Shown here: positions 12,870 through 50,607 of the stretch, piece by piece | How the letters are laid out: each line of letters opens with the position of its first letter | Numbering within the stretch: position 1 is the stretch's first letter | Assembly: GCA_900018345.1 (NCBI GenBank) | Contig: FCNA01000120.1 | Span: forward strand, 1-50,837 | DNA: 50,837 nt | Source of the DNA: Clostridiales bacterium CHKCI006 | GTDB taxonomy: Bacteria > Bacillota_I > Bacilli_A > Erysipelotrichales > Coprobacillaceae | Reading direction: 5' to 3' | Program-made: the position numbers and the translations under genes | The notes under the pieces: model-generated | Databases searched by the model: none | The model's input: only the letters and a program-made list of their open reading frames with translations | Told to the model about the DNA's origin: nothing

Positions 12870-12879
12870 ATGACACCAA

Positions 12880-22939: not shown

Positions 22940-22992
22940 AAAAATTCAAGATATAAAAAATGACCTTTATATAGTGAGGAGTATGGAGCAGG

Positions 22993-23475: not shown

Positions 23476-23671
23476 TGAATAAAAGAGATGAGGCACGATG
23501 TGAAAAAATCATCTTCCGTTTATGAGAGTTGTTCCAATTATTATCATACTGCAGCTCGTCGTTAAAGCTTTGTCCATTATATTATCTGAAAGGGGCAGAC
23601 TGTATTCTGTTCAGTTAGCAGGATTGCAGAGCAAAGCCCGATTATATATTTGAATGAGGAGGCACATAAAT

Positions 23672-24541: not shown

Positions 24542-24552
24542 ACAATTAAAGA

Positions 24553-24604
24553 TAAAAAAAATGAAACGATTCTTTTTATAGAATTGAGAACGTTTCATTT
24601 TTTT
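24553..24604. terminator. Bidirectional terminator between convergent genes
   Basis: Stem AAATGAAACG/CGTTTCATTT with long A and T runs on the two sides, between genes ending at 24541 (+) and 24625 (-). Confidence 0.8.
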
Positions 24605-24624
24605 CTGCTTTAAGCATAGATGCT

Positions 24625-25455
24625 TTAAAACTCCATCTTTATAATTGACATCTTCATCATTCTATCTCCCAGTCTTGCGAGCAGACGATGAGATGGATGG
24701 ATGCCGGGACTTTTCATGTCATAATAGCCCAGCATATATCCTTTTGAACTCACGTTGATTGTATCTGACCAGTTTAATTCTTTAAGCGGATCAGAAACAC
24801 AGAAATAGCCTTTCACATCCTGTATTCCCATGTTTTTAAGAATTTTGCTCATCATGAGTCTGAGTCCTGCTTTTCCAATCGTATCAAAAATCAGACATCC
24901 GTTTGGATAATGCTGTGAGAGTCTTAAAACCAGTGCTTTGACTTCTTCTGTTTTAAAATAATGAAAGACACCTGAAGCAAACAGAATGATTCCCCTGCTT
25001 CCATCTATCTGATCCATCCATGAATCATTTCTTATATCTGCCGCGATATTCTCTTCTCTTTCATGTACTGGCATCCAAAGATTACGAATCTTAATAATGT
25101 CAGGAAAATCAATGTTGACAATATGGCATGTACCGTTATCACATGCAAGCCCGGTCTGATCCAATCCACAGCCTAAGTTTACAACGGTTGCATTAGGGTG
25201 CTTTTTGAGATAATTCTTTATTTCCTACATCATATCCAGCTGTCGCATAGCTGCTTCCAATGCACCAAACTCGTAGAAAAAGGTATCCTGCTTCTTTTCC
25301 AGCTCGCTAAAATCATAATCCAGCTTTTCACAGAATGCTTTTGCAGATGTATCGGTATATAATTCAGGAAATTTCTCAGCACACATTTTTCTTCCAAACA
25401 GAGGTACGATCAGCGTTTCCTGAACCGAATTCTTTTCAATATGTATTTTATTCAT
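24625..25455 (-). pseudogene. Class I methyltransferase interrupted by an amber codon
   Basis: The gene reads as one frame of 276 codons but has a TAG at 25225-25227 between LEAAMRQLDMM and EIKNYLKKHPNATVVNLGCG. The second part has the SAM motif VVNLGCGLDQTG and the later HIVNIDFPD and FASGVFHYF segments typical of leucine carboxyl methyltransferase/TcmP-like enzymes. The N-terminus (QETLIVPLFGRKMCAEKFPE) is also family-like. No frameshift is needed; one base change explains the break. A possible re-start is a TTG at 25164, which would lose the SAM motif. A metal-type box lies 24 bases before the ATG. Confidence 0.75.
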
Positions 25456-25479
25456 TGTTAAATACGCCTCCTTTTTTTA

Positions 25480-25495
25480 GTTAGCCTTGTATAAC
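25480..25495 (-). promoter_or_regulatory. Metal-type box before the methyltransferase
   Basis: GTTAG-CCTTGT-ATAAC differs from GTTAG-N6-CTAAC by one base and lies 24 bases before the start codon at 25455. Confidence 0.55.
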
Positions 25496-25526
25496 TATTA
25501 TATCAGATGAGAATCCCTTTTCATAG

Positions 25527-25555
25527 ATAAAAAGCCAAGCTTCATTAGCCTGGCT
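25527..25555 (-). terminator. Terminator after ABC module 1
   Basis: On the minus strand, arms AGCCAGGC and GCTTGGCT enclose a short loop and lead into TTTTTAT. The stem begins within the last codons of the ABC gene. Confidence 0.65.
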
Positions 25556-27290: not shown

Positions 27291-29034
27291 AAGAGTTTAC
27301 CTCCTTTGTTTTGATTTTCCAAGTATGAGAAGCCGTTGCAGCGTTCCATAGCTTCTGATATTCGGCATTATTCTTTAATAAATCCTCATGCTTTCCAATA
27401 CCGTCAATCTTGCCTTTTTTCATAACGATAATCTGATCAGCATTGACAATGGAAGGCAGGCGGTGTGCGATGATGAGAACTGTCTTATTCTGAATAATCT
27501 GTGAAATAGCCTTGTTCATCTTGTCTTCGTTTTCGCTGTCAATGAAAGCAGTCGCTTCATCTAGAATAATGATTGGTGCATCTTTTAGGATTGCTCTGGC
27601 CAGTGAGATTCTCTGTCTTTCACCTCCGGACAATTGCTTTCCTCCATCTCCGGCAGGCGTATCAATTCCTTTTTCAAGACGTGATAGAAAGTCATTGCAC
27701 TGTGCCTGCTTAGCTGCCTGAAGAACTTCTTCATCGGTAGCCTCCAGATTTCCATATCGGATATTTTCCTTTAGGGTTGTGTTGAATAGAAACTGTTCCT
27801 GTGAAACATAAGAAATCTGTTTATTTAACTGTTCGATGCTCATATCACAGATATTCTGTCCGCCTATGCTGATTTTTCCGCTTTGTACATCATAGAAATG
27901 GACAAGCAGCTTAGCTAAGGTACTTTTTCCTGAACCTGATTCTCCGACAAAGGCAACCATCTGTCCCTGTGGAATATTAAGTGACACGTCATGGATTACC
28001 TCGTCTTTGTCATAGCTAAAGCAGACATGATCATATTTGATAGAGAAATCTTCTCCCATAAAAGCCTTGCTGTTTTGTTTCAAAGGTTCACTTGCCATGA
28101 GCTTTTCCAATGATTCGATTTTATAGTTGAGCTGAGGAAAGGTGGACATGAAGTTCAGTGCTTTCAAAATGGGAACTCCCATGCCAAAGGATAAGCACAA
28201 GATAAGAATAAAGTCTGTCAGCGTACTATATCCCTGTAAAACCAGATAAGATCCAATCGGCAATGCGAACAAGGCAATGCATGGCAAAATGCTGCTGTAA
28301 AGAGCCATCCATGGCCATGATGCCTGATACCATTTTAAGGTAAAATCACGATAGGCTGTGACATCATCCTTTAATCGCTTATAAGAAGCTGCATCATGAT
28401 TAAAAACCTTGACGACTTCCATTCCCTGAACATATTCAATGATGGTATTGTTCATTTTGCCGGCAGAGGCATAATAATTTGCCATTTCCTTCATGCCTAC
28501 ACGGTACATGATCATCATAGAAATGATGCCGAAAGGCAGCGAGCATAGGGATAAAAGAGCCAGCTTCCAGTCAATAAAGAACATGGCAATTAGAATAATA
28601 ACCGGTATGGAAACATTTGCAATTCCTTCCGGAACTGCATGAGCAAGCAACAGTTCAATGCTGTCGATGTCATCAATGAACATTTTTTTGAGAACACCGT
28701 TTCCTTTTTCCTGAATAACACCTAAAGGAAGTTTTTCAAGACAGTCCTGCAGATAGGTTCGGATATTCTTCAAGGTATGATAGGCGCTTTCGTGGGATAA
28801 TGCCAGTCCTTTCACATATAAGATACCGTGCATGATCATACATAAGACTATGACGGCGATATGAAGCAGGCAGTAAGACATGGAAATGTCCTGTCGATTG
28901 AGCAACGGATTGATCAGTCGGTAGATCATAAAATAAGGAATAATGCTGAAAATAACAGCAATAATCAATACTATGATGGATTGATATGTTTTCTTTTTAT
29001 ATTCATGAGCGTATTGAAAGACTTTTTTAAACAT
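27262..29034 (-). CDS. ABC module 1, subunit A (fused permease-ATPase)
   Basis: 590 residues with six spans and a complete ATPase (GESGSGKST, LSGGERQR, ILDEATAFID, IAHRLP). Residues 125-136 read SIELLLAHAVPE. An E-x-x-x-AH-x-x-P-E/D motif in this place recurs in the first subunits of modules 2 and 3 and partly in module 4; to my knowledge it is typical of YbtP/IrtA-like importers. AGGAGGGAATCT precedes ATG 29034, and a GTTAG-N6-CTAAC box stands 17 bases upstream. It forms a heterodimer with the 25545-27290 product (inferred from pairing). Confidence 0.8.
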   Translation of the reverse strand: MFKKVFQYAHEYKKKTYQSIIVLIIAVIFSIIPYFMIYRLINPLLNRQDISMSYCLLHIAVIVLCMIMHGILYVKGLALSHESAYHTLKNIRTYLQDCLEKLPLGVIQEKGNGVLKKMFIDDIDSIELLLAHAVPEGIANVSIPVIILIAMFFIDWKLALLSLCSLPFGIISMMIMYRVGMKEMANYYASAGKMNNTIIEYVQGMEVVKVFNHDAASYKRLKDDVTAYRDFTLKWYQASWPWMALYSSILPCIALFALPIGSYLVLQGYSTLTDFILILCLSFGMGVPILKALNFMSTFPQLNYKIESLEKLMASEPLKQNSKAFMGEDFSIKYDHVCFSYDKDEVIHDVSLNIPQGQMVAFVGESGSGKSTLAKLLVHFYDVQSGKISIGGQNICDMSIEQLNKQISYVSQEQFLFNTTLKENIRYGNLEATDEEVLQAAKQAQCNDFLSRLEKGIDTPAGDGGKQLSGGERQRISLARAILKDAPIIILDEATAFIDSENEDKMNKAISQIIQNKTVLIIAHRLPSIVNADQIIVMKKGKIDGIGKHEDLLKNNAEYQKLWNAATASHTWKIKTKEVNSYAETAIQNH

Positions 29035-29051
29035 AGATTCCCTCCTTGTGT

Positions 29052-29067
29052 GTTAGTCTAAGCTAAC
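29052..29067 (-). promoter_or_regulatory. Metal-type box before ABC module 1
   Basis: A perfect GTTAG-TCTAAG-CTAAC, 17 bases before the start codon at 29034. Confidence 0.75.
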
Positions 29068-29075
29068 TGATAGTT

Positions 29076-29104
29076 AATTTTTTTAGCTCCCGGTAGAGAG
29101 CTAA
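29076..29104 (-). terminator. Terminator after TetR 1
   Basis: Minus-strand stem TTAGCTC/GAGCTAA (29104-29098 and 29089-29083) followed by AAAAAATT. It includes the tetR stop codon and separates the gene from ABC module 1. Confidence 0.55.
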
Positions 29105-29718
29105 TGTTTAAATCCTAAAACCTTATACCAGTCAAACAGATTGCAGACAAGCTGATTGTATCTTATGATTTCTTCCCAGCTGAAATCATGAACGAAAGGT
29201 TCATAAATGGTTTCCCAGAAAGCAGATAGAAGTACGTGCATTTCTCTGCGGGAAACCTGTACCTCCGTCAGATGTCTTCGATAGGCTTCCTCGTAGTATT
29301 CATATGTGTAATCAGACATTTTCTGTACCCAGTCATGGCTGAAGTTTGAAAATTTTGAACCTTCACTTCTGCATAGAAGAAGCTTAAAGCATTCCTTTCT
29401 CTGATATAGAAATTCAAACCACCAGAGCATATAACTTTCATCCATATCCCAGCTTCTGATTAGTGCTTCATCAGATACGGTATCGGGATCAGTCAGCTTT
29501 TTTTGATTGATGATATCATCCAAGTCATCCAGCAGAGGCTGAACGACAGCAAGAAACAGTTCCTCTTTGCCTTTATATCTTTTATATAAAGCTCCGGTTG
29601 TGACTTCAGCATTTCCGCATATGGATTTTAAAGAGGCATTCAGGAAACCTTCCTTCAGAAACTCCTGCTTGGCACTGTCTAAAATCTTAGGATCCAGTGT
29701 AGTATCTCTTTTTGACAA
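29101..29718 (-). CDS. TetR-family regulator 1
   Basis: A 205-residue protein. The TetR helix-turn-helix spans about residues 8-55 (ILDSAKQEFLKEGFLNASLK, then AEVTTGALYKRYKGKEELF). The C-terminal ligand domain is rich in Trp, Tyr and Phe. It precedes ABC module 1 on the same strand and has a near-perfect 30-bp palindrome (29736-29765) downstream of its own TTGACA/TATAAT promoter, so autorepression is likely. The family responds to small ligands; the ligand here may be the transported compound (inference). It is divergent from TetR 2. Confidence 0.85.
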   Translation of the reverse strand: MSKRDTTLDPKILDSAKQEFLKEGFLNASLKSICGNAEVTTGALYKRYKGKEELFLAVVQPLLDDLDDIINQKKLTDPDTVSDEALIRSWDMDESYMLWWFEFLYQRKECFKLLLCRSEGSKFSNFSHDWVQKMSDYTYEYYEEAYRRHLTEVQVSRREMHVLLSAFWETIYEPFVHDFSWEEIIRYNQLVCNLFDWYKVLGFKH

Positions 29719-29735
29719 ATGATCACTCCTTTACT

Positions 29736-29765
29736 GATAACTTAATTATCGATAATTACATTATC
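29736..29765. promoter_or_regulatory. Operator of TetR 1
   Basis: The 16-bp perfect core TAATTATCGATAATTA (29743-29758) is extended by GATAA/TTATC arms to 30 bases. On the minus strand a TTGACA, 16 bases, TATAAT promoter lies directly before it, so binding would block transcription start. Confidence 0.75.
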
Positions 29766-29854
29766 ATTATATCTTATTGTATACAGTTGTCAATCATTTA
29801 CTGATATTTTTAAATTTTCAATAATTTTTGAAGCCAAAAAATTTCCTGAATCCA

Positions 29855-29913
29855 TTGACAAAAGGCGAAAGATGTTTTATATTTAAAACAGTGTTACGTA
29901 ACACTGTTTTAAA
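29855..29913 (+). promoter_or_regulatory. Promoter and operator of TetR 2
   Basis: TTGACA (29855-29860), 17 bases, TATATT (29878-29883). A perfect 32-bp palindrome follows at 29882-29913, centred on GTGTTACGTAACAC. It overlaps the end of the -10 box and the start site. Confidence 0.85.
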
Positions 29914-29929
29914 AGTTTGGAGGTGAGCC

Positions 29930-30541
29930 ATGCCAAAGAGAAAAGAAGGCGTTTATGAGAAAATCCTGGACGCCGCAAAAAAGGAGTTTCTGTCTAAGGG
30001 ATTTCGTGATGCATCGCTTCGAGTGATTGCCAGAGAAGCAGATACCAGCACAAGTTCAATTTACACAAGATTTAAAGATAAGCAGGGACTTTTTGATGCT
30101 ATCATTCAGCCTGTTGGAGATGAATATGTGGAGATGTTTACAAAGATTCAGGAACAGTTCTGGCAGATGGAATACTATGATGATTATGACTATATGCTGG
30201 AATACAGCGAGAACGGACAGAAAATGCTGCTGGATTATATCTATGAACACTTTGATGAATTTCAGCTGCTGTTATGTCAGGCGGATGAAACGCAGAAGGA
30301 TCGTTTCATGAATACCCTGATTGATATAGAAACGAAGGGATCACTGGAATATCTGGATGTCATGCAGCCAAAGCAGCGTGTTGATGAAGAATTTATGCAT
30401 ATTGTCAATACAGCTTTTTTCAACGGCTTTTTTGAAATCGTTCATCATAAGATGGACAGGGAAAAAGCTTATCAGTATATTACAAGACTGAGAGCATTTT
30501 ATAACGCCGGATATGCGACTGTTTATGATGCGGAGTTCTAA
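29930..30541 (+). CDS. TetR-family regulator 2
   Basis: A 203-residue protein with a TetR helix-turn-helix at about 8-55 (ILDAAKKEFLSKGFRDASLR, then ADTSTSSIYTRFKDKQGLF). The ligand domain is acidic, with a DDYDYMLEYSENG segment. GGAGGTGAGCC precedes ATG 29930. It lies upstream of ABC module 2 in the same direction, and its own promoter carries a perfect 32-bp palindrome. It is divergent from TetR 1, so the two regulators and their ABC pairs form a mirror arrangement. Confidence 0.87.
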   Translation: MPKRKEGVYEKILDAAKKEFLSKGFRDASLRVIAREADTSTSSIYTRFKDKQGLFDAIIQPVGDEYVEMFTKIQEQFWQMEYYDDYDYMLEYSENGQKMLLDYIYEHFDEFQLLLCQADETQKDRFMNTLIDIETKGSLEYLDVMQPKQRVDEEFMHIVNTAFFNGFFEIVHHKMDREKAYQYITRLRAFYNAGYATVYDAEF

Positions 30542-30566
30542 GGAACTCTTTCTTTTAAAGAATTTG

Positions 30567-30582
30567 GTTAGCTAAAACTAAC
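30567..30582 (+). promoter_or_regulatory. Metal-type box, distal, before ABC module 2
   Basis: A perfect GTTAG-CTAAAA-CTAAC, 94 bases upstream of a second box at 30661. It stands just after TetR 2. Confidence 0.7.
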
Positions 30583-30660
30583 TTCTGAAAGTGAGATGAT
30601 AGGAATAGATAAAATAATAGTGAGAAGGGTTCACAGGAACTCATTTATTTAAAACATTAA

Positions 30661-30676
30661 GTTAGCTTAGCCTAAC
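30661..30676 (+). promoter_or_regulatory. Metal-type box, proximal, before ABC module 2
   Basis: A perfect GTTAG-CTTAGC-CTAAC, only 14 bases before ATG 30691 and touching the ribosome site. It is the closest match in the window to the inner part of the DtxR/IdeR consensus. Confidence 0.8.
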
Positions 30677-30690
30677 AGAAGGGAGAAGTT

Positions 30691-32436
30691 ATGGAAACAA
30701 AGAAAAAATCCCCACTCCTACGTCTATGGGATATGGGGGAGGAAGAACATGGAAAACTTATATTGGCAATCGTACTGGCTGTGATTGGCGTATCCTGCAG
30801 CATGGCTGCCTATTACAGTGCAGCACAGATGATCATCGGACTGCTTCATGGCAATCAGAATATCAGCTTTTATCTGACATGGTGTGCTATTGCATTCGCA
30901 GGATATGTTATCAAGGCGGTCCTGTATACGCTGGCATTGTCAAAGTCACATCAGGCAGCATTCTCGATTATGAAAAACATCCGCATTCAGTGTATGCACA
31001 AGCTTACCAGAGTACCGATGGGAAATCTGCTGGATGTATCAAGCGGGCAGATGAAGCAGCTCATTGTCGATCAGGTAGAAAGCATGGAAACTCCTTTAGC
31101 ACATCTTTTGCCTGAAATGACCAGCAATGTGCTTGCACCGCTCTTTGTCTTTATTTATCTATTGATTCTTGACTGGCGTATGGCACTCATTACTTTGATT
31201 TCGCTGCCGATCGGATTATTCTTCATGTCTTTTATGATGAAGGATTATGCGAAAAAATATCAGGGTTCCGTTGAAACTGCACAGAAGATGAATACTGCCA
31301 TTGTAGAATATATCAATGGCATTGAAGTCATCAAGGCATTTAATCAGGGCAAGAATTCTTATCAGAAATATGCGGATGCGGTAAAGGCCAATGCTGAATA
31401 TTTTTATCAGTGGATGAAAAGCTGTCAGCTTCCTTCGTCTGCAAGCCGTATCGTAACGCCTTCAACAATGATTACGGTTCTTCCGTTTGGATTATGGTTT
31501 GTCATGAACGGAAGCCTTTCCGTTGAAAGCTTTATTGTGATTATGATTCTTGCATTTGGAATCATCGATCCTTTGATTGCGGCAATGTCTTTTACAGACA
31601 GTCTGGCTGTGGTGGGAACAATCGTAGATCTTGTGGAAGGTCTGATTTATGCTCCGGAACAGAATCATGGAAATATACCCGTTCAGTTTGAAGATACAGC
31701 TATCACAATGAAGGATGTATCCTTTGGCTATCATGAAGGTCAGGAGGTTCTGCATCATATTGATCTCAATATTATGCCAAATGAGGTCTGTGCATTTGTC
31801 GGACCAAGCGGCAGTGGAAAATCAACGATTACCAAGCTGATTGCAGGCTTCTGGGACATTGAAAAGGGAGATATTACGATTGGAAATTATTCTCTTAAGC
31901 AGATTCCGCTTTCTCAGCTGAATCAAAAGATTGCCTATGTATCACAGGACAACTATCTGTTTAATGATACGATCATGGAAAACATAAGAATGGGAAATCC
32001 TGATGCAGATGATGCTGAAGTCATGGAAGCTGCCAAGAAGGCTGGCTGTCATGAGTTTATTCAGTCGCTGGAAAATGGATACCAGACAATCTGCGGCAGC
32101 AGCGGAACACATTTATCAGGAGGGGAACGACAGAGAATTGCTATCGCAAGAGCGATGCTGAAGGATGCCCAGATTATCATATTGGACGAAGCAACGGCCT
32201 ATATCGATCCGGAAAATGAAGCAATCGTGCAAAAGGCAGTATCTTCTTTGGTCAAGGATAAGACACTGATTGTCGTGGCGCATCGTCTGTCAACGATTAC
32301 GGAGGCATCAAAGATCGTTGTAGTAAATAAAGGAAGAATAGAAGCCATTGGCAGACATGAAGAACTGCTTGCAAACAATGCATTATATAAGCAGATGTGG
32401 CAGGCGCATATAGGAACAAGGGAGGAAGCATTATGA
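30691..32436 (+). CDS. ABC module 2, subunit A (fused permease-ATPase)
   Basis: 581 residues: six spans followed by a complete ATPase (GPSGSGKST, YVSQDNYLFNDT Q-loop region, LSGGERQR, ILDEATAYID, VAHRLS). The importer-like motif reads SMETPLAHLLPE, as in subunit A of module 1. AAGGGAGAAGTT precedes ATG 30691. The stop overlaps the start of subunit B (ATGA), so translation is coupled. Preceded by TetR 2 and two metal-type boxes. A YbtP/IrtA-like role in uptake of a metal complex is the favoured reading; export cannot be excluded from sequence alone. Confidence 0.8.
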   Translation: METKKKSPLLRLWDMGEEEHGKLILAIVLAVIGVSCSMAAYYSAAQMIIGLLHGNQNISFYLTWCAIAFAGYVIKAVLYTLALSKSHQAAFSIMKNIRIQCMHKLTRVPMGNLLDVSSGQMKQLIVDQVESMETPLAHLLPEMTSNVLAPLFVFIYLLILDWRMALITLISLPIGLFFMSFMMKDYAKKYQGSVETAQKMNTAIVEYINGIEVIKAFNQGKNSYQKYADAVKANAEYFYQWMKSCQLPSSASRIVTPSTMITVLPFGLWFVMNGSLSVESFIVIMILAFGIIDPLIAAMSFTDSLAVVGTIVDLVEGLIYAPEQNHGNIPVQFEDTAITMKDVSFGYHEGQEVLHHIDLNIMPNEVCAFVGPSGSGKSTITKLIAGFWDIEKGDITIGNYSLKQIPLSQLNQKIAYVSQDNYLFNDTIMENIRMGNPDADDAEVMEAAKKAGCHEFIQSLENGYQTICGSSGTHLSGGERQRIAIARAMLKDAQIIILDEATAYIDPENEAIVQKAVSSLVKDKTLIVVAHRLSTITEASKIVVVNKGRIEAIGRHEELLANNALYKQMWQAHIGTREEAL

Positions 32437-34163
32437 TCAAGGTTTTAAAGAAAATATGGGATTTTGCTGGCGTTGAGCAGAAACACATAAAAAAATCTAT
32501 TATTATCGGTATTTTCTATGCTATCTTTCATATGTTCATGATTGGTGCCATTTTCTTTGCGGTAGAGGCAGTTGTCAATGAAAGTCATGATGTTCGCTAT
32601 ATTTTCATGACATTCTTCATGGTTCTATTAAGCATAGTAGGACGAATTGCCTGCAACTACTCAACTCAGCTTCATCAGACACATGCAGGATACTACATGT
32701 CGGCATGGAAAAGAATTGACATAGGAAATCGCTTGAAGACAATTCCAATGGGATTTTTCAATGAAAACAGCTTAGGAGAAATTACCGGGATTGCGACAAC
32801 CGTTTTGCAGGAAGTGGAAACAACCGTTCCAATGGTACTGGTCATTACCCTGACTGGCATCATCAATGCACTGATTTTTATCGTGTATATCTTTTTCTTT
32901 GATTATCGTATCGGCTTCATTGTTCTGCTGGGAACGATCTGTTATTTTTTCATCACTTCCAAAATGGAAAAGAAATCCAGCATGATTGCTCCAAAACGCC
33001 AAAGATCAACAGCAAAGCTGGTAGAGGCGGTTTTAGAGAATATCAAAGGAATGTTTATTGTTCGCTCATTTAATCTTTCAGAAAATGATCATCAGAATAT
33101 AGATGAAGCAATTGAAAATAATCGTGCCAGCAATCTGGCAATGGAAAGACTGTTCACACCATATACGATTGCTCAGGAAATAGTCTTAAAGCTGTTTAGT
33201 ATTCTGATTATCCTTGCGGCGATACAGTTTTATTGGAATCAGACAATGTCTTTGACTTACTGTCTGATGATGATTATTGTATCATTTCTGATATTTGCAC
33301 AGATTCAATCTGCAGGCAGCGGTCTGGCAATTTTAAGACTGGCAGGAAGCTCCATTGATCATGCCAATAAGGTAGATGAAACTCCGATACTTGATGAACA
33401 TGGAAAAGAAATCAAGCCTGAGAATCAGGAAATTGTATTTAACGATGTCAGCTTTTCCTATGACAAGAGAGAAATTCTTCACCATGTTCAGCTGACGATT
33501 CCGCACCATTCTTCATTGGCTATTGTCGGACCTAGCGGAAGCGGAAAGACAACATTGTGTCATCTGATTTCCAGATTCTGGGATGTCAATCAGGGAAGTA
33601 TTTCTATTGGCGGACATGATATCAGGGACTATACACTGGAATCTTTGATGGATCAGATCAGCATGGTCTTTCAGAATGTTTATCTGTTTAATGATACGAT
33701 AGAAAACAACATTAAATTCGGCAGACCGGAAGCAACTTTGGAAGATGTGAAACTGGCTGCCCAGAAAGCATGCTGTGATGAATTTATTGAATCGTTGCCA
33801 GAAGGGTATCAGACAGTCATTGGTGAGGGCGGATCTTCGTTATCAGGCGGTGAAAAGCAAAGAATTTCTATTGCCAGAGCCATTTTAAAAGATGCGCCAA
33901 TCATTATCTTTGATGAAGCGACAGCCAATGTAGATCCGGAAAACGAAGATAAGCTGCAAAGGGCGATGGAAGAACTGATGAAGGATAAGACAGTTATTAT
34001 GATAGCTCACCGCTTGAAAACAGTGAAACATGCATCAAAGATTATAGTAATCAATAATGGTCAAATCGTTCAGCAGGGAACGCATCAGCAGCTGATAAAG
34101 GAAGATGGCCTGTATAAAAAATTTGTTGAACAGAAAAATGAAACCGGTTCTTGGAAGTTGTAA
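32433..34163 (+). CDS. ABC module 2, subunit B (fused permease-ATPase)
   Basis: 576 residues from ATG 32433, chosen for GGGAGGAAGC upstream and the ATGA overlap with subunit A; the frame back to 32397 lies inside subunit A. Six spans, then GPSGSGKTT, SMVFQNVYLF, LSGGEKQR, IIIFDEATANVD (Phe in place of the usual Leu before the Asp) and IAHRLK. The charged EKKSSM segment lies in a cytoplasmic loop. It pairs with the 30691-32436 product as a heterodimer. A weak terminator at 34178-34210 ends the operon. Confidence 0.8.
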   Translation: MIKVLKKIWDFAGVEQKHIKKSIIIGIFYAIFHMFMIGAIFFAVEAVVNESHDVRYIFMTFFMVLLSIVGRIACNYSTQLHQTHAGYYMSAWKRIDIGNRLKTIPMGFFNENSLGEITGIATTVLQEVETTVPMVLVITLTGIINALIFIVYIFFFDYRIGFIVLLGTICYFFITSKMEKKSSMIAPKRQRSTAKLVEAVLENIKGMFIVRSFNLSENDHQNIDEAIENNRASNLAMERLFTPYTIAQEIVLKLFSILIILAAIQFYWNQTMSLTYCLMMIIVSFLIFAQIQSAGSGLAILRLAGSSIDHANKVDETPILDEHGKEIKPENQEIVFNDVSFSYDKREILHHVQLTIPHHSSLAIVGPSGSGKTTLCHLISRFWDVNQGSISIGGHDIRDYTLESLMDQISMVFQNVYLFNDTIENNIKFGRPEATLEDVKLAAQKACCDEFIESLPEGYQTVIGEGGSSLSGGEKQRISIARAILKDAPIIIFDEATANVDPENEDKLQRAMEELMKDKTVIMIAHRLKTVKHASKIIVINNGQIVQQGTHQQLIKEDGLYKKFVEQKNETGSWKL

Positions 34164-34177
34164 TCATATATATAAAG

Positions 34178-34210
34178 TCACATGCCTATCAAAAAGGGTG
34201 TGTGATTTTT
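34178..34210 (+). terminator. Possible terminator after ABC module 2
   Basis: An imperfect stem, TCACATGCC/GGGTGTGTGA, is followed by a five-T run. Moderate support only. Confidence 0.4.
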
Positions 34211-34246
34211 CTATTGTACATATATTATGTATGTGGTAGTATTTTG

Positions 34247-34262
34247 GTTAGAATCAACTAAC
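34247..34262 (+). promoter_or_regulatory. Metal-type box before the AraC gene
   Basis: A perfect GTTAG-AATCAA-CTAAC, 19 bases before ATG 34282. Confidence 0.72.
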
Positions 34263-34281
34263 TTTAGGGGTGTATATTGAA

Positions 34282-35226
34282 ATGAAATTAAATGAATCAT
34301 GGTATGGAAATAAGGCAAAGATCATTAAACAAGGAAAAGATTATGCGGTTATAGAATATGGCTGTAGCGGAAAGGGAATTGTGTCAACCTATCAGCTCTT
34401 TGACGGGATTTCCCTTTGTTTTCTGGATTTTGATACTGAAGATATCATGCCTTCTCAGCAATTTAATCCAAATATTATTTCAATTGTATGCTGCTATAGC
34501 GGACGCTATGAATGCGAGTTTTCCAATCATCAAGTGTTTTACCTTTCTGAAGGATCTTTTGCTGTTATGGGAACAAAATATCTGCCTTCATTCTTTTCTT
34601 TTCCATTGAAAAAGTGCTTTGCATTTAGCTTAGTCATCGACATACAGTCACTAAGCAGCAATTCTATTCAGCTTTTAGATTCATTTGATCTGAATATAAA
34701 CAAAATTAGTGAGCATCTTAGACTTGACGAGAATGGATACCTATGTCATGCAGGAAAAGAACTTGGACATATATTTTCGGAAATTTATGAAGCAAAGGAT
34801 ATAAATGATATTTCATATTTTCGCATAAAGGCGATAGAATTCTTGTTCCGTATCAATAAGTTTTCACATGATGAGAATCAGTCATTTCAGTACTATGACA
34901 AGAAGTATATACAGAAGGCAAAAGAAATATGTAATTATATGATTGAACATCTAGACGAAAAAGTTTCGTTAAGGCAATTAACTGCTGAAAAGGATTTTAA
35001 TTTATCTTTATTCCACAAGGTTTTTACTCAAATATATGGCGATACTCCGTATGCTTATATAAAAAAATACAAAATGAATATCGCCGCTAATGAGCTAAAA
35101 AATACCGACAGGAAAATAAATGATATAGCTTTAAGCTTGGGCTATAATAACGCAAGCAAATTTTCAATAGCGTTTCATTCAGTATATGATATATTGCCAA
35201 AAGATTATCGAAAACAAAATAATTAG
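34282..35226 (+). CDS. AraC-family transcriptional regulator
   Basis: A 314-residue regulator. The C-terminal 100 residues carry the double helix-turn-helix: VSLRQLTAEKDFNLSLFHKV with FTQIYGDTPYAYIKKYKM, then INDIALSLGYNNASKFSIAF. The N-terminal 200 residues are a ligand or sensor domain with a cupin-like strand pattern. ATG 34282 fits AGGGGTG upstream; an in-frame GTG at 34270 overlaps it. It sits between ABC modules 2 and 3 with its own metal-type box. YbtA, which activates yersiniabactin genes, is a family parallel. It is probably an activator triggered by the imported complex (inference). Confidence 0.82.
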   Translation: MKLNESWYGNKAKIIKQGKDYAVIEYGCSGKGIVSTYQLFDGISLCFLDFDTEDIMPSQQFNPNIISIVCCYSGRYECEFSNHQVFYLSEGSFAVMGTKYLPSFFSFPLKKCFAFSLVIDIQSLSSNSIQLLDSFDLNINKISEHLRLDENGYLCHAGKELGHIFSEIYEAKDINDISYFRIKAIEFLFRINKFSHDENQSFQYYDKKYIQKAKEICNYMIEHLDEKVSLRQLTAEKDFNLSLFHKVFTQIYGDTPYAYIKKYKMNIAANELKNTDRKINDIALSLGYNNASKFSIAFHSVYDILPKDYRKQNN

Positions 35227-38962: not shown

Positions 38963-38986
38963 AACATGTTCAAATTTGAACATGTT
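38963..38986. repeat. Palindrome copy 2 (TGTTCAAATTTGAACA core)
   Basis: A perfect 24-bp palindrome with ATGTTCAAATTTGAACAT at its centre, about 70 bases before the TetR 3 promoter. Confidence 0.85.
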
Positions 38987-39033: not shown

Positions 39034-39087
39034 TTGACATTTTCATGTACAAGGATATAATATAACTAAGTTATATAACTTAGTTAT
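39034..39087 (+). promoter_or_regulatory. Promoter and operator of TetR 3
   Basis: TTGACA (39034-39039), 16 bases, TATAAT (39056-39061). A perfect 26-bp palindrome follows at once (39062-39087), centred on AAGTTATATAACTT. It would block transcription start when bound. Confidence 0.85.
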
Positions 39088-40817: not shown

Positions 40818-40854
40818 AAGAACAGGTGAGATTATAATCCGCCTGTTCTTTTTT
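40818..40854 (+). terminator. Terminator after the O-methyltransferase
   Basis: Perfect arms AAGAACAGG/CCTGTTCTT followed by a T run; it separates the methyltransferase from the replicon-like block. Confidence 0.8.
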
Positions 40855-40875: not shown

Positions 40876-40904
40876 CTGACATCTTTTAAGATACGCGATA
40901 AAAT
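40876..40904 (+). promoter_or_regulatory. Promoter of the first XRE pair
   Basis: CTGACA (40876-40881), 17 bases, TAAAAT (40899-40904), similar to the promoters at 41780 and 42854. Confidence 0.5.
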
Positions 40905-40930: not shown

Positions 40931-41197
40931 ATGGCGAAGATCAGTTTGACTGCACAGGCAGCAGGAAAAAGAATAAGAGAATACAGGGAAGAAAAGAAAT
41001 GGACTATCAATAAGATGGCAGCATTTACTGGCATGGATGCGAAGCATTTAAAGAAACTGGAAGATGGTCTTTCTGAGGGAACATTTCTTGCATATATACA
41101 TCTGATAGAATGTATGGAGAAGAATATCAGTGATCTGTTTGATCAGAGATTTATGGATATTCTCTATTCATTAGAAACAGGTGAAGTGCTTTCATGA
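40931..41197 (+). CDS. Small XRE-type protein
   Basis: An 88-residue protein that is mostly one Cro/C1-type helix-turn-helix (about 10-70: AGKRIREYREEKKWTINKMA, then MDAKHLKKLEDGLSEGT). AGAAAGGGGTCGAAAGTC precedes ATG 40931. Its stop overlaps the next start (ATGA), so the two are translationally coupled and may form a pair. Probable DNA-binding regulator of the XRE-ParAB block. No target is proven. Confidence 0.75.
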   Translation: MAKISLTAQAAGKRIREYREEKKWTINKMAAFTGMDAKHLKKLEDGLSEGTFLAYIHLIECMEKNISDLFDQRFMDILYSLETGEVLS

Positions 41198-41742
41198 GAG
41201 TGAAATCAACGTTGTCTGATCATGATCATATTCATCTGAAGACATTATCCAGACTTCTTGTGAGATACAGGGAACAAAAAGGGTGGTCTGTTGCTGATCT
41301 TTGTAAAATGGCACATATAGACCGTGACAGCTATACAAAAGTGGAAAGAGGAGAACGCAATCCTACGATTGGGGTTCTGGAAAGTATCATATCAGTTTAT
41401 GGTATCGATATACATACATTTTTTTCTACTGACTATCAGCAGATTTATAATGAAGAACAAGCTGAATGGAAAATAGATCAAATGCTTAATGACAATCTTT
41501 GCAGAATGATCGACAGACAGAAAGTGATTCAGCTGATTAAAAGATTCAGAAAATCTCGTAAAATCAGTCAAAGCCTGTTGGCAATGGAAATGGGTATTCA
41601 AAGAAATTATATCAACAACTTTGAATATAGTCGTTCTAAAGTTACGCCTGAATTATTGAAAGGCATATTGACAATAATGGAAATTGATATAGAAACACTT
41701 TTAGATATGCTGGAGGTTCCTGAATATTTACGTAAATTTTGA
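41194..41742 (+). CDS. Protein with two XRE helix-turn-helix domains
   Basis: A 182-residue protein with two tandem XRE domains: residues 14-72 (LVRYREQKGWSVADLCKMAH, SYTKVERGERNPTIGVLE) and 108-170 (FRKSRKISQSLLAMEMGIQR, YINNFEYSRSKVTPE). A double domain in one chain suits binding of a palindrome without dimerisation; the four-copy palindrome family, one copy of which begins in this gene's last codon (41741), is a natural candidate target. Coupled to the gene before. Confidence 0.78.
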   Translation: MRVKSTLSDHDHIHLKTLSRLLVRYREQKGWSVADLCKMAHIDRDSYTKVERGERNPTIGVLESIISVYGIDIHTFFSTDYQQIYNEEQAEWKIDQMLNDNLCRMIDRQKVIQLIKRFRKSRKISQSLLAMEMGIQRNYINNFEYSRSKVTPELLKGILTIMEIDIETLLDMLEVPEYLRKF

Positions 41743-41760
41743 TGTTCAAATTTGAACATC
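41741..41760. repeat. Palindrome copy 3 (TGTTCAAATTTGAACA core)
   Basis: Exactly GATGTTCAAATTTGAACATC. It overlaps the stop codon of the double-XRE gene and ends 19 bases before the next promoter (41780). A T run follows, so it might also end transcription. Confidence 0.85.
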
Positions 41761-41779
41761 ATTTTTTGTTTGTTCTATA

Positions 41780-41808
41780 CTGACAGTTTCAGCCATGCAC
41801 GACATAAT
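41780..41808 (+). promoter_or_regulatory. Promoter of the third XRE gene
   Basis: CTGACA (41780-41785), 17 bases, CATAAT (41803-41808). The -10 region reads GCACGACATAATG, identical to that of the parA promoter at 42854-42882. Confidence 0.7.
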
Positions 41809-41831
41809 GAATTTGGAGGTGAAGGTAATAT

Positions 41832-42062
41832 ATGGAAAATAATTTAGATAATAGCATGATTCTAACTCTATTTGGTGAGCAGGTAAAAAATTTCAGGACC
41901 AAGCAATATCTGACACAGGCGGAACTGGCTGAGAAATCACATCTGCATAGAAACTCCATTGTTCTTATTGAGAATGGAAAACAGAACCCAACATTGACAT
42001 TGATGTATAAGCTGTCCTTTGCATTGAATGTAAAGATGAAAGATCTGGTGGATGATTTATGA
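41832..42062 (+). CDS. Small XRE regulator
   Basis: A 76-residue single-domain Cro/C1 protein (about 12-72: FGEQVKNFRTKQYLTQAELA, then HRNSIVLIENGKQNPTLTLM). GGAGGTGAAGG precedes ATG 41832. It overlaps the next gene by 4 bases (ATGA) and heads a three-gene operon with two small acidic proteins. It is transcribed from a promoter that nearly duplicates that of parA and is likely its repressor or its own (inference). Confidence 0.8.
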   Translation: MENNLDNSMILTLFGEQVKNFRTKQYLTQAELAEKSHLHRNSIVLIENGKQNPTLTLMYKLSFALNVKMKDLVDDL

Positions 42063-42385
42063 GACAATCAAAAGACGAAATCATAGAAATGTACTTAAGA
42101 GCAGAACTATATGAAAGGCTGGATTGTTATGAGAATGAGGATTATAAAGCAAAGATCGATCGTCTAACTGAAATGATAGAGGAAATGAAAAAACTGCTTC
42201 CATCAGAACAACATGGACTGCTGCATGAGTTTGAGGATATCTATATAGATCTGCTTTCCTATTCTGATCCATACGAATTTGAAAACGGGTTCTGCTATGG
42301 AGTATCATTATTGCTAAGTGTCATGGAAAAGGAAAGAGAATTTAATAAAAACTGGAAGGAAAGGAGAAATATAGGCAATGAATAG
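42059..42385 (+). CDS. Small acidic helical protein 1
   Basis: A 108-residue, highly charged and mostly helical protein (EIIEMYLRAELYERLDCYEN, EEMKKLLPSEQ), ending in a YEFENGFCYGVSLLLSVM segment. The following gene has a comparable plan (YGFLDGLMIGMLM), so the two may be diverged paralogues. No signal peptide or motif. It is translationally coupled to the XRE gene upstream and overlaps the gene downstream by 8 bases. Function unknown. Confidence 0.65.
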   Translation: MRQSKDEIIEMYLRAELYERLDCYENEDYKAKIDRLTEMIEEMKKLLPSEQHGLLHEFEDIYIDLLSYSDPYEFENGFCYGVSLLLSVMEKEREFNKNWKERRNIGNE

Positions 42386-42737
42386 AAAAAACACTGCTTG
42401 TAATGATTCAAACTTTGATAAGATTATGAAAATCTATATGGAGGCATTGGTTTATCTTCAAAATGATGATTATATGCTGAAAAGTCAGGAATATCTAGAA
42501 ATTGATAACAAATTAGAGGAACAGAAGGATTACATTAAAGTAGAAGCTAATGATATACGATTAGAAGATAAAATAGGAAAATTATTAGACAGATATGATG
42601 ATACTTGGCAAAGGATGAACTTCATCTATAGATCCTATGGTTTTTTAGACGGATTAATGATTGGAATGTTGATGAAGAATAATTCACAAGAAGATTATTA
42701 TCAAAAACTTTTTGAATTAATCATAAATAGAATATAA
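42378..42737 (+). CDS. Small acidic helical protein 2
   Basis: A 119-residue acidic protein related in layout to its upstream neighbour: N-terminal helix (KIMKIYMEALVYLQNDDYML), central helix pair and a hydrophobic ending SYGFLDGLMIGMLMKN. AAGGAGAAATATAGGC precedes ATG 42378. It is the last gene of the operon. Its close link with ParA and ParB downstream may mean a role in element maintenance, but there is no direct evidence. Confidence 0.65.
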   Translation: MNRKNTACNDSNFDKIMKIYMEALVYLQNDDYMLKSQEYLEIDNKLEEQKDYIKVEANDIRLEDKIGKLLDRYDDTWQRMNFIYRSYGFLDGLMIGMLMKNNSQEDYYQKLFELIINRI

Positions 42738-42825
42738 AAGTGTATCTTTCTAAAACCAATTTCTGATACTAGATACTAGATATATGTAGACTGTTGGATA
42801 AAAAATTCTGATAGTCTTTTTTTCT

Positions 42826-42849
42826 AAGATGTTCAAATTTGAACATCTT
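42826..42849. repeat. Palindrome copy 4 (TGTTCAAATTTGAACA core)
   Basis: A perfect 24-bp palindrome with the 20-bp centre GATGTTCAAATTTGAACATC. It lies directly before the parA promoter, 52 bases upstream of the parA start. Confidence 0.88.
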
Positions 42850-42853
42850 GGCG

Positions 42854-42882
42854 CTGACAAATATATAAAAGCACGACATAAT
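42854..42882 (+). promoter_or_regulatory. Promoter of parA-parB
   Basis: CTGACA (42854-42859), 17 bases, CATAAT (42877-42882). The GCACGACATAATG segment is identical to that at 41780-41808, and the palindrome ends 4 bases before the -35. Confidence 0.7.
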
Positions 42883-42901
42883 GTGTATCGAGGTGATACA
42901 C

Positions 42902-43720
42902 ATGAAAAAAACAAAGAATATAGAAAGAAAAGGACATATTATTGCGGTAACCAATCAGAAAGGCGGAACAGGCAAGACGACAGTAACCATCAATGTAGGG
43001 GTTGGATTATCTAAAATGGGATATAAGGTTCTGGTATTGGATAATGATGAACAGACAAATCTAACAACTGGCTTAATTGTAGACAATCAGTTATATAAGG
43101 AGAAGAATTTAGGAAATCTTCTTGATGATGTACTGGATGAAAAGAAGATTAGATTAAATAGATATATTATCCGTTTACGTTATGTAGATATCATAGCAGG
43201 TTGCAGAAATCTTTTTACCTATAAGGAAGAATTCAGAAACAGAGAGAATCGCAATACGATTTATAGGGATGTCTTGGAGCAAGCAAGGTATAAATATGAT
43301 TTTATTATGATTGACTGCCCACCTGTGGCAGGTATCGAAAATGCACAGGCATATACAGCTGCTGACAGCATCTTAGTAGTATCAGAACCTTCCATGTACA
43401 GTATGGATGGTATCGTGGACGCTGTTAGAATTGTAGGGGAAGCAAGAATCACTGAAAATCCAAAGCTAAGAGTATTGGGCGTAGTGGTCAATAAGATGCA
43501 TTTTATGAGAAGAGAAGATAAAGGATATGTGCAAGAGATACGTTCCATGTGCAATGGGAAGGTACATGTATTCGATAGCATTATTCCTGAAAGTGCAGCT
43601 ATCGCAAGATGTGCTTCATTAGGAAAAAGCATTCTTCAGCATAGAAGCACATCGAAAGCATCATATGCCTTTCTTGATTTGGCACAGGAAATCGTAAAGG
43701 AGGTGTCATTAGATGCGTAG
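42902..43720 (+). CDS. parA: ParA-family partition ATPase
   Basis: A 272-residue ATPase with the deviant Walker A NQKGGTGKTT (18-27, including the signature Lys20), Walker A' VLDNDEQTNLT, and the Walker B-type FIMIDCPP. ATG 42902 has AGGTGATACA upstream; a frame back to 42881 includes the ribosome site. The N-terminus is short, so DNA binding comes from the C-terminal surface. It works with the ParB-like protein, whose ATG overlaps the parA stop. It would keep an episome or excised element stably inherited. A Soj-like chromosomal protein is less likely given the setting. Confidence 0.9.
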   Translation: MKKTKNIERKGHIIAVTNQKGGTGKTTVTINVGVGLSKMGYKVLVLDNDEQTNLTTGLIVDNQLYKEKNLGNLLDDVLDEKKIRLNRYIIRLRYVDIIAGCRNLFTYKEEFRNRENRNTIYRDVLEQARYKYDFIMIDCPPVAGIENAQAYTAADSILVVSEPSMYSMDGIVDAVRIVGEARITENPKLRVLGVVVNKMHFMRREDKGYVQEIRSMCNGKVHVFDSIIPESAAIARCASLGKSILQHRSTSKASYAFLDLAQEIVKEVSLDA

Positions 43721-44690
43721 ACCTAGGGAAATACAGAATATTTTTGGCAATGATGGAGCAATCAGATTTGAGAGAGAAGAATATACTTATCTTGATTCTG
43801 ATTGTCTGGAAACACATCCTGATCATAAGTTTAGACTTCATACGGGTGTTCGCATGGAAAAGCTGATTGAGTCTATTGAATGTGCAGGTGTCATGCAGGC
43901 AATTCTGGTCAGCGAAAGAGATGGAAAGCGATTTTTGCTGGCAGGATATAATCGAGTATATGCAAGCAGGAAAGCAAACAAAAAGATGGTTCCTGCCATC
44001 ATCAAAAGAGATTTATCAAGAATACAGGAAGTTCAGATTATTAATTTTACTAACTTCTTTTCCAAAGGAACAAATGATTATTCATATCTTGAAAGAGTTA
44101 GAGCAATGAAGGCTGAATATAATCAGCTAGTAAACAGTCGAAAAAGGTCAGATGAAAGCTATGAAAAACAGTCAACCAGGGAATATTTTGCCAGTCTTTA
44201 TGAAATGACAGATTCTACAATGAATAGATTTTTAACACTTGATAAGCTATGTGATGAACTTCTGGAATGTCTTGACGATAAAAAAATCAACATTTCTGTT
44301 GCATTAAAATTCGCAGAGTTGGATTATCAAAAACAGGAAAAGATTTATCATTTTCTATTGGTAAACAAAAGAAAAATCAGTATAAAAGAGAGTCTGCTTT
44401 TAATTGAGCAATTACATAATAATGAAGAACCAAGATTAGAGGTATCACAAGATGAAAATAAAATGACAAAACTTAACTACAAGATTGATGAAACAATTTT
44501 GGAAAATATTCCGTCTGGAAAACAGCGACAGGAAGCTATAGAACAGTCATTGAAGTTCTCACAAAAAAGCCTACCAGATTGGTTTAAAAATCATGATATA
44601 GTAATTGCTGAAAAGGATATGTATAACTATGTTTTGAGTATTTTTGAAAGGGTGTATCTGAAATATCCTGAACTTTTGAAAGAGAAGTAG
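43713..44690 (+). CDS. parB: ParB-like partition protein
   Basis: A 325-residue protein. The ParB/Srx-type N-terminal domain covers about 40-120, with a variant box GYNRVYASRKA in place of the usual GERRxxA. A helical DNA-binding middle part follows (YEMTDSTMNRFLTLDKLCDE, KINISVALKFAELDYQKQEK) and a C-terminal dimer region. AAGGAGGTGTCATTAG precedes ATG 43713 and overlaps parA by 8 bases. ParB proteins bind palindromic parS sites; the four TGTTCAAATTTGAACA palindromes are candidates. There is no visible CTPase-type full GERRxR motif, so it belongs to a plasmid-like branch. Confidence 0.8.
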   Translation: MRRPREIQNIFGNDGAIRFEREEYTYLDSDCLETHPDHKFRLHTGVRMEKLIESIECAGVMQAILVSERDGKRFLLAGYNRVYASRKANKKMVPAIIKRDLSRIQEVQIINFTNFFSKGTNDYSYLERVRAMKAEYNQLVNSRKRSDESYEKQSTREYFASLYEMTDSTMNRFLTLDKLCDELLECLDDKKINISVALKFAELDYQKQEKIYHFLLVNKRKISIKESLLLIEQLHNNEEPRLEVSQDENKMTKLNYKIDETILENIPSGKQRQEAIEQSLKFSQKSLPDWFKNHDIVIAEKDMYNYVLSIFERVYLKYPELLKEK

Positions 44691-45417: not shown

Positions 45418-45508
45418 CGTAGAGAATCTGCTGAAAAATGATATATAATGGCTTTCTTGCTTTGTCATGAGTGGAAAGCCTAAAAATCTTCTTTTTTTTA
45501 AAATTTAA

Positions 45509-45524
45509 GTTAGCTTTAACTAAC
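45509..45524 (+). promoter_or_regulatory. Metal-type box before ABC module 4
   Basis: A perfect GTTAG-CTTTAA-CTAAC, 19 bases before ATG 45544. Confidence 0.76.
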
Positions 45525-49671: not shown

Positions 49672-49755
49672 CATTACAGGGAGTATAATGATTTCTTTAA
49701 TGATTCATTAGAGTATCTTATTATCTGACAGTTTGAAGGCGGGTGTTACTGATTG

Positions 49756-50109
49756 ATGAGATATACGAAAAAAGATGAAAGAAGACGTGCATTTTTAAGG
49801 GAACTGAAAAATTATAAGGGAAATAAGGAACTGATGAAATATTATCAGGAAATCATTGATAACCCACATGATTCAATTCCTCAGGTATATATAGAAAGAT
49901 GCAAAAAAGATCTAATCAGAGTCAAAGGAAATATGCAGTATGTATTGGAGCTCATTCAAAGACTTCCTGAAAAAGATCAGGAAATGCTGATGGATGTATT
50001 TGTATTGGATATGAATAGAAAGGAATTGCTGTCAAAATATAATATGTCAGGAAATCTCTTATATTATCACTACAACCAGATTGCTCGAAAGCTTGCTGAT
50101 ATGGATTAG
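49756..50109 (+). CDS. Small helical protein with C-terminal sigma-4-like helix-turn-helix
   Basis: A 117-residue protein. The last 45 residues (LPEKDQEMLMDVFVLDMNRK, then ELLSKYNMSGNLLYYHYNQI) fit a sigma region-4-like or ArpU-like helix-turn-helix. ATG 49756 follows a TTG at 49753; GGCGGGTG is the only upstream purine-rich stretch. It is 3 bases from the next gene. Proteins of this size, followed by another helical protein, are seen in phage late-control and ICE regulation; the assignment stays tentative. Confidence 0.6.
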   Translation: MRYTKKDERRRAFLRELKNYKGNKELMKYYQEIIDNPHDSIPQVYIERCKKDLIRVKGNMQYVLELIQRLPEKDQEMLMDVFVLDMNRKELLSKYNMSGNLLYYHYNQIARKLADMD

Positions 50110-50112
50110 AGA

Positions 50113-50607
50113 TTGGTTAAAACAGGGACTGTTCACACTGAAATCTTAAAGAGTCTTGTCAATGAATTTTTAAGCTACTCATACTGGCAGAGACAAAAAA
50201 GCGAGCTAGAAGAGGATCTGGCAATATTAGAGGAACGTATGTACGAATTGAGTGGTATTTCCTATGATGGTATTCCACAGAAAAATCGTAAACAGAATCA
50301 GGAAAGCAGACTTATTCAATTGATTACAGATAAAGAAAAAATAGAAGAACGTCTGCGTTTTATTCAAAGCAAAGAGGATTTTGTAAAAGAGATGATGGAT
50401 ATAATGTCTGAAAATGATCAGGAATTTATCATGAAATCTCTGATATATCGCAGTGCTTATGATACAAATGACAGCATTGGGATGAAAAGCAGCATTACAG
50501 AATCTGGTGTCAGATATAAGATAAATACTATCATCAGTAGAACTTTTGAAGAGTATTTGACAAAAGAAACTAAGAAAGGAGGCAAGGTTGAACAAACTGC
50601 AGGATGA
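50113..50607 (+). CDS. Coiled-coil protein of unknown function
   Basis: A 164-residue protein with a long coiled coil (about 25-100: KSELEEDLAILEERMYELSG, then LIQLITDKEKIEERLRFIQS) and a C-terminal helix-turn-helix-like region (MSENDQEFIMKSLIYRS, SSITESGVRYKINTII). The frame opens with TTG 50113 and no strong ribosome site, so the exact start is unsure. It follows the 49756 gene by 3 bases and is likely coupled to it. Phage-type small regulator is a guess. Confidence 0.55.
   Translation: MVKTGTVHTEILKSLVNEFLSYSYWQRQKSELEEDLAILEERMYELSGISYDGIPQKNRKQNQESRLIQLITDKEKIEERLRFIQSKEDFVKEMMDIMSENDQEFIMKSLIYRSAYDTNDSIGMKSSITESGVRYKINTIISRTFEEYLTKETKKGGKVEQTAG

Follow-up and report, generated by a model that had tools for sequence, protein, structure and literature searches.

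A probable ParABS block, dispersed palindromes and a recombinase-common promoter in a draft genome of Clostridiales bacterium CHKCI006

What partition genes are doing in the midst of a transporter cluster is the question raised by a 50,837-nucleotide stretch of DNA from Clostridiales bacterium CHKCI006 (the window; positions 1 to 50,837 of contig FCNA01000120.1), which makes up the whole of contig C25 in a 3.33-Mb draft genome of 164 contigs. At 40931-44690, between ATP-binding cassette (ABC) transporter modules 3 and 4, an earlier note had described a block of three XRE-type genes, two coupled small acidic proteins, ParA and ParB, and had offered two options: either the entire ABC region belongs to a large element, integrative or extrachromosomal, or the block is a smaller insertion. 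Its gene list was borne out by domain searches, and the follow-up analysis found two features absent from that note, namely a palindrome dispersed over the window and a promoter that the block has in common with recombinase genes. We regard it as reasonably probable that a single large integrative/conjugative element, with the ABC transporters as its cargo, has been split by the assembly over C25 and a second contig, C56, and that the block is its ParABS module with linked regulators.

ParA, ParB and the dispersed palindromes

The pair has the make-up of a type I ParABS system, in which a deviant Walker-type ParA (here recognised by AAA_31, phrog_164 and the sequence KGGTGKTT) is followed directly by a ParB; the two genes overlap. 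The match of ParA to the ParA-like family phrog_164 reached 174.9 bits, and a single weak PADLOC match was obtained besides (5.9e-4). Residues 34-226 of ParB aligned with the ParB structure 4umk (E 5.4e-6), indicating that the N-terminal and the DNA-binding regions are both present. The two genes and the copies of the palindrome are listed below, the palindromes without assignment to a strand.

42902-43720, plus strand: ParA-type Walker ATPase, 272 amino acids from a re-placed start; AAA_31 at 141 bits, KGGTGKTT kept.
43713-44690, plus strand: ParB, 325 amino acids, divergent; ParB_N at 29.8 bits against a cut-off of 26.3; its start overlaps the end of parA.
20479-20500: palindrome site 1, 22 bp, perfect; flanked by convergent genes and adjacent to the left part of the window with its resistance genes.
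38963-38986: palindrome site 2, 24 bp, perfect; after the terminator of ABC module 3 and before a tetR gene.
41740-41761: palindrome site 3, 22 bp, perfect, with its 16-bp core at 41743-41758; overlaps the HTH2 stop codon.
42826-42849: palindrome site 4, 24 bp, perfect; separated by 4 bp from the downstream -35 box of the parAB promoter.
C56:44443-44458: palindrome copy on C56, as a 16-mer (perfect copy from C56:44441); between two co-directional genes.

The perfect palindrome, with core TGTTCAAATTTGAACA, occurs as single copies of 20-24 bp, all five of them intergenic and two overlapping a stop codon. Searching the window with the 20-mer at up to three mismatches returned 4 copies against a mean of 0.01 in shuffles, and searching the whole draft genome with the 16-mer at up to one mismatch returned 5 (four on C25 and one on C56), with none for a reversed-pattern control and with a composition-based expectation of 0.0026 copies per genome at an assumed guanine-plus-cytosine (GC) content of 0.41. 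Single sites were met in 3 of 392 other related genomes and in 11 contigs of an 84,980-species collection, while 1 of 2.9 million viral contigs held the palindrome and the string was not found in the literature searched. Near-perfect 16-bp palindromes were then scanned for families in 24 stretches, comprising the window, three stretches of the same genome and 20 other ParB loci. The window was the only stretch with a family of more than two members; a pair was present in 3 of the 20 other ParB loci (and in 2 of the 72 shuffles listed as control), and the other 20 stretches had none. Within this draft genome, the palindrome is a candidate centromere confined to C25 and C56.

Canonical parS, TGTTTCACGTGAAACA, has the same length as the palindrome core (16 bp) and the same outer TGTT/AACA arms. 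Five exact copies of canonical parS are present in this genome within 7 kb on C73, in a cluster that adjoins genes that by sequence look like recR, dnaX and serS; the one remaining match, with two mismatches, lies on C100 (reversed control, 1). The same genome-wide search found none on C25 or C56, which argues that the element has its own site. On the strength of these sequence features, the palindrome is the putative binding site of ParB. Moreover, 18 bases, including the loop, are identical across the five copies, and this speaks for a protein-binding duplex, though it does not prove one.

XRE proteins commonly bind short palindromes, and the block encodes three of them, so the palindrome could instead be the operator of an XRE protein serving as master repressor of the element, with ParAB using another, unseen site. 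Two of the five copies do sit 4 and 18 bp upstream of block promoters, the latter being site 3 (measured to the -35 box of the HTH3 operon promoter), and the C56 copy overlaps a weak promoter-like match (9/12). However, site 1 lies between convergent genes, 54 bp past the end of one of them, and 20050-20700 holds no promoter-like match; the two C56 promoters that belong to the common class described below have no adjacent palindrome; and the 16-bp length with TGTT/AACA ends fits parS. We consider an XRE operator unlikely on this balance, and continue with the palindrome as the putative ParB site.

ParB itself has no close homologue in the genome contigs or viral contigs searched, and its distant matches comprised 3 weak plasmid records and 6 weak phage records. 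A block fixed at the same chromosomal position in all relatives, which according to the earlier note would speak against mobility, was not seen: the ParB matches, present in 77 of 147 other related genomes, were all distant, the best at 4.5e-13 and 25% identity. A structure model of ParB had a mean predicted local distance difference test (pLDDT) score of 37 and was not used.

A promoter common to partition and recombinase genes

Upstream of parAB and of the HTH3-DUF6809 operon we found the same promoter, consisting of CTGACA, a 17-bp spacer that ends in GCACGA, and CATAAT.

41780-41808, plus strand: common promoter copy 1, of the HTH3-DUF6809-DUF6809 operon; CTGACA-N11-GCACGACATAAT.
42854-42882, plus strand: common promoter copy 2, of parAB; CTGACA-N11-GCACGACATAAT.

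The parA start at 42902 was preferred over the mechanical one at 42881, because the ATG at 42881 overlaps the -10 box of this promoter and a Shine-Dalgarno sequence precedes 42902. After being seen twice on C25, the promoter core was seen twice on C56, each time just upstream of one of the two tandem tyrosine recombinase genes. A genome-wide search with its 18 fixed positions, allowing up to two mismatches, returned exactly 4 copies and none for the reversed control. Six bases of the spacer do not vary, which suggests that a regulator or a special sigma factor reads this promoter. Two neighbouring frames at 49753-50607 in the window show weak matches to phrog_36 (transcriptional regulator), are possibly sigma-like and are candidate readers. 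In the 392 other relatives, a pattern one base shorter and with one mismatch allowed gave two single near-copies, in genomes G143 (taken up below) and G330, the latter a one-mismatch match with merely a 68-amino-acid frame downstream; the matches in viral contigs were one coding sequence present in two contigs.

If the palindrome is the ParB site, ParB (43713-44690) would load at its dispersed copies, and ParA (42902-43720) would move the ParB-loaded DNA over the nucleoid, as is known for other systems of the ParABS kind. Both daughter cells would then inherit the circular or replicating form, and the element would be stabilised while excised or replicating. Given that two sites sit just upstream of block promoters, ParB probably also controls the HTH3-DUF6809 and parAB operons. 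Because partition, HTH3-DUF6809 and recombinase genes have one private promoter, partition would be expected to come on together with integration/excision, and this co-switching would probably be under one XRE protein or an element-borne sigma-like factor. We put forward, as a tentative proposal that falls somewhat short of even chances, a centromere on demand: parAB and both recombinases would fire from one private promoter class, with active segregation only on excision, by means of a new parS (TGTTCAAATTTGAACA) scattered over both cargo and transfer regions and a strongly diverged ParB short of part of the cytidine triphosphate (CTP)-binding motifs. If true, a Walker-type ParABS with a recombinase-common promoter would give a direct view of excision coupled to faithful inheritance. 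Private dispersed sites, for their part, can suggest which contigs of a fragmented genome form one mobile element.

The block as a whole is bounded by a methyltransferase gene on the left and a tetR gene at 44800 on the right, and holds three co-directional operons, HTH1-HTH2 (40931-41742), HTH3-DUF6809a-DUF6809b (41832-42737) and parA-parB (42902-44690). Its remaining features are the following.

40820-40853, plus strand: intrinsic terminator of the upstream methyltransferase gene, at the left edge of the block; hairpin 40820-40848 plus T6, -15.7 kcal/mol, z -5.7.
40876-40904, plus strand: probable promoter of the HTH1-HTH2 operon, CTGACA-17-TAAAAT; from a scan, 10/12.
40931-41197, plus strand: HTH1, XRE-like, 88 amino acids; HTH_19 at 28.3 bits, slightly under the Pfam cut-off of 30.2.
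41194-41742, plus strand: HTH2, 182 amino acids, with two HTH_3 stretches; HTH_3 at 78.9 bits; its start overlaps the end of HTH1.
41832-42062, plus strand: HTH3, XRE protein, 76 amino acids; HTH_3 at 48.3 bits.
42059-42385, plus strand: DUF6809 protein a, 108 amino acids, acidic, pI 4.67; PF20648 at 37 bits against a cut-off of 27.
42378-42737, plus strand: DUF6809-like protein b, 119 amino acids, acidic, pI 4.78; PF20648 at 17.6 bits, under the cut-off of 27.
42788-42817, plus strand: intrinsic terminator of the HTH3-DUF6809 operon, inside the block; from scan and folding.

By eye, the promoter at 40876-40904 is perhaps a degenerate relative of the common promoter, from which it differs by more than two mismatches. 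Terminators had been claimed on both sides of the block. The left one stands by folding (40820-40848 followed by T6), whereas none was seen on the right between parB (44690) and tetR (44800), where the scan returned nothing and folding gave hairpins that no T-run follows (z -2.1). Little weight attaches to the scan by itself, because it also missed the left terminator.

DUF6809 proteins a and b are encoded by translationally coupled genes (42059-42385 and 42378-42737). Protein a is helical in a low-confidence single-sequence model (mean pLDDT 66.3), which as a query gave no PDB match at E<=0.001; a search of the plasmid collection with the protein at E 0.01 found nothing, and no mention of DUF6809 was found in the literature searched. 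A toxin-antitoxin or defence role for the XRE/DUF6809 genes was considered and rejected, as the two DUF proteins had no toxin family match in Pfam, NCBIfam or PADLOC. The HTH proteins matched PADLOC regulator models via the HTH domain (best HTH_VI, 2.6e-19) and NCBIfam antitoxin models under curated cut-offs.

Contig C56, the extent of the proposed element and rival readings

Between 38 and 81 kb, C56 carries two tandem tyrosine recombinases, DNA methylases, a beta clamp, a T4SS-DNA_transf protein (VirD4-type coupling), a TraG P-loop ATPase, TrbL_4, an M23 peptidase and a DnaG primase, so that a site-specific recombinase and type IV secretion/coupling genes, two of the hallmarks of an integrative and conjugative element (ICE), stand together on this contig. 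One recombinase matches integrases in PHROGs and the other matches annotated tyrosine recombinases on plasmids. Relatives of the VirD4-type protein were present in 3 of 147 other genomes at E<=1e-60 and in 101 plasmid records, all below 60% identity, and in none of the viral contigs. The VirD4-type and TraG-type proteins are 51% and 56% identical to those of G067:C25, a contig of another genome; this contig, which holds the best VirD4 relative, has no match to the window ParA/ParB at E 1e-8 and no palindrome copy in its 30.8 kb, part of which was masked.

As for the window, the stretch assigned to the element is as follows.

20451-50837, no strand assigned: stretch attributed to the element that bears parABS, its cargo being the ABC transporter modules; from GC content and palindromes, left limit approximate.

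Its GC content is 0.363, against 0.441 for 1-20450, and 20451-45400 had no plasmid match by megablast. The palindrome brackets ABC modules 1-3 (20479-42849) and recurs on C56 with the recombinase and conjugation genes, which supports the large-element option of the earlier note. By contrast, a small element inserted at the block was rejected: neither a recombinase gene nor a repeat pair was seen at the block edges, and the signals reach far beyond the block, spanning 22 kb and C56. That C25 belongs to the same element as the C56 recombinases is what the sites and the common promoter suggest.

Alternatively, C25 could belong to another replicon or element, whose ParAB the conjugative element on C56 would exploit by means of a parS-like copy, in the way that SGI1 exploits IncC plasmids. 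This is quite unlikely in our view. Only one of the five sites is on C56, the contigs are unjoined, and SGI1 sets a published precedent (PMC10954446, in the accessible part of that paper); but the C56 recombinases and parAB have one promoter, a link in regulation that hijacked sites alone do not explain, and the GC content is similar (0.363 for the element part of C25 and 0.372 for C56).

Whether a single element over C25 and C56 is integrated is a question of state, and an extrachromosomal conjugative plasmid would also be compatible with ParABS. Its partition, primase and clamp genes are plasmid-like. Against a plasmid state stand the two tandem tyrosine recombinases with their common promoter, the want of a plasmid megablast match just described, and a drop in the GC content of C56 from 0.41-0.46 (3-30 kb) to 0.28-0.41 (30-81 kb; 0.28-0.32 at 30-39 kb and 0.35-0.41 beyond), such that the step near 30 kb may be a chromosome-element border. 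No tRNA was found on C56. No Rep gene was identified: domain searches matched no Rep family among the block proteins, as the earlier note had it, though not every C25 and C56 gene was scanned, and its term 'replicon-like' was not borne out. An HTH_36 protein beside DnaG on C56 is a possible Rep candidate. We hold the plasmid state to be rather doubtful.

Several results weigh against a ParABS-bearing element as proposed here. The canonical CTP-binding motifs of ParB are GERRxRA and ENLQR, and by alignment this ParB departs from both, with GYNR in place of GERR (G and the last R kept) and with the N of ENLQR kept and its R lost. Comparison did not link ParB and the palindrome, no close ParB homologue having been found: at the 20 other, distant ParB loci, palindromes came in pairs at most, and with 11-20 kb covered per locus this neither supports nor refutes the site assignment. 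In addition, sites 1 and 3 and the C56 copy (three of the five) have a terminator-like score in one of the two orientations, and each of the five folds into a hairpin (-9.3 to -11.3 kcal/mol), as terminators or structural repeats without a protein partner would. However, sites 2 and 4 do not score and come after separate terminators as judged by folding, site 1 is situated past a further terminator-like hairpin (20260-20288), and the score of the C56 copy is confined to the strand that does not encode its two neighbouring genes, while structure alone would not require the identity of 18 bases. We rank such a role as improbable and less likely than an XRE operator.

Further points of this kind concern the element. 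C25 and C56 are unjoined in the assembly, both right ends stopping in repeats common to other contigs, and contig-end linking gave no unique join; apart from the palindromes, the two have no common 19-mer. The relaxase family PF03432 was not found on either (matches are on C68, C18 and C133; other relaxase families were not searched). At G143:C3 9786-9814, the promoter recurs with one mismatch immediately ahead of a large serine recombinase gene, and no match to the window ParA/ParB was found within the 40 kb examined there; this copy hints at a wider promoter class for recombinases. Finally, ParA and ParB could have been recruited for a different purpose, for example to slow the division of the host during transfer. 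The precedent is ICEclc, with its order alpA-parA-shi-parB, where ParA and Shi arrest growth (PMC6812849, from the part of the report at hand). Small uncharacterised proteins adjoin parAB in the block as well, and DUF6809 would be the possible partner; yet the DUF6809 genes belong to a distinct operon, which a terminator separates from parAB, and dispersed private parS-like sites are what partition needs. We think such a task very improbable.

The left part of the window, from 1 to about 20450, is best read as a separate (nested) mobile element lodged beside palindrome site 1. Window 1-20450 matches the bcr (bacitracin-resistance) region of Enterococcus plasmids in two pieces. The DNA that interrupts them matches regions bearing aminoglycoside-resistance genes in Pusillibacter, Subdoligranulum and Campylobacter plasmid records; it holds a large serine recombinase and a transposase of the IS1595 type besides its aminoglycoside nucleotidyltransferase genes. 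The left part ends with two tandem tyrosine recombinases, and over 17185-20203 it matches a Subdoligranulum plasmid record at 72.5% identity.

Other inverted motifs were noted in the window. A 26-bp perfect palindrome at 39062-39087, directly after the -10 box of the tetR promoter, is probably a TetR operator, and a 32-bp perfect palindrome at 29882-29913 precedes a gene at 29930-30541. A short repeated inverted motif of the type GTTAGCT-N4-CTAAC lies near several gene starts (21224-21256, 30550-30582, 30644-30676 and 45492-45524) and is maybe a common operator of the transporter cassettes. On C56, stretches 1-18000 and 18001-35000 encode FtsW/RodA-like, transpeptidase, JAB-ThiF and transglutaminase proteins and a second VirD4-like protein, then a 2830-amino-acid protein, perhaps a secretion or cell-envelope system.

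Comparison with known partition systems

Within the same genome, C23 encodes what we read from its neighbouring genes as the chromosomal ParA/ParB pair, with the parS cluster on C73. The block proteins are 28% (ParA) and 20% (ParB) identical to this pair. The sites have the same length and outer arms, but the site cores differ (CAAATTTG against TCACGTGA), and the systems lie on separate contigs. A further parA-parB pair is encoded on C18, a contig with a relaxase; its ParB is 19% identical to that of the block, and no perfect palindrome of at least 16 bp was found in the 36 kb of C18 scanned.

Among other integrative elements, a literature search judged by the titles and abstract openings listed found no report of ParABS on a Gram-positive ICE. 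SXT/R391 ICEs are actively partitioned by SrpMRC, which is related to the actin-type parMRC, according to the accessible part of the source (PMC4489591). The element proposed here would likewise be a conjugative integrative element with partition, but one with a ParA of the Walker type, a ParB_N protein and dispersed sites. ICEclc resembles it in carrying parA and parB on an ICE, in having a small protein gene beside parA, and in the regulatory tie to the integrase that its authors suggest; by contrast, no Shi-like gene lies between parA and parB here, and no dispersed sites were seen for ICEclc in the portion of the report at hand (PMC6812849).

The closest published architecture, as far as the accessible part of the paper goes, is the ParABS system of IncC plasmids (PMC10954446). 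In plasmid R55, a 22-bp inverted repeat lies at the parA promoter and recurs in 13 more copies over the backbone, and SGI1, a separate integrative parasitic element, carries two copies of the IncC parS-type repeat; ParB binding was shown there for three probes, namely two IncC plasmid sites and one SGI1 repeat. The block is like R55 in having an inverted repeat at the parA promoter together with scattered copies, and differs in host group and in site sequence. In the IncC system the repeat partly overlaps the -10 box, whereas the block has its repeat ahead of the -35 box, with five copies known and with a promoter that is common to recombinases.

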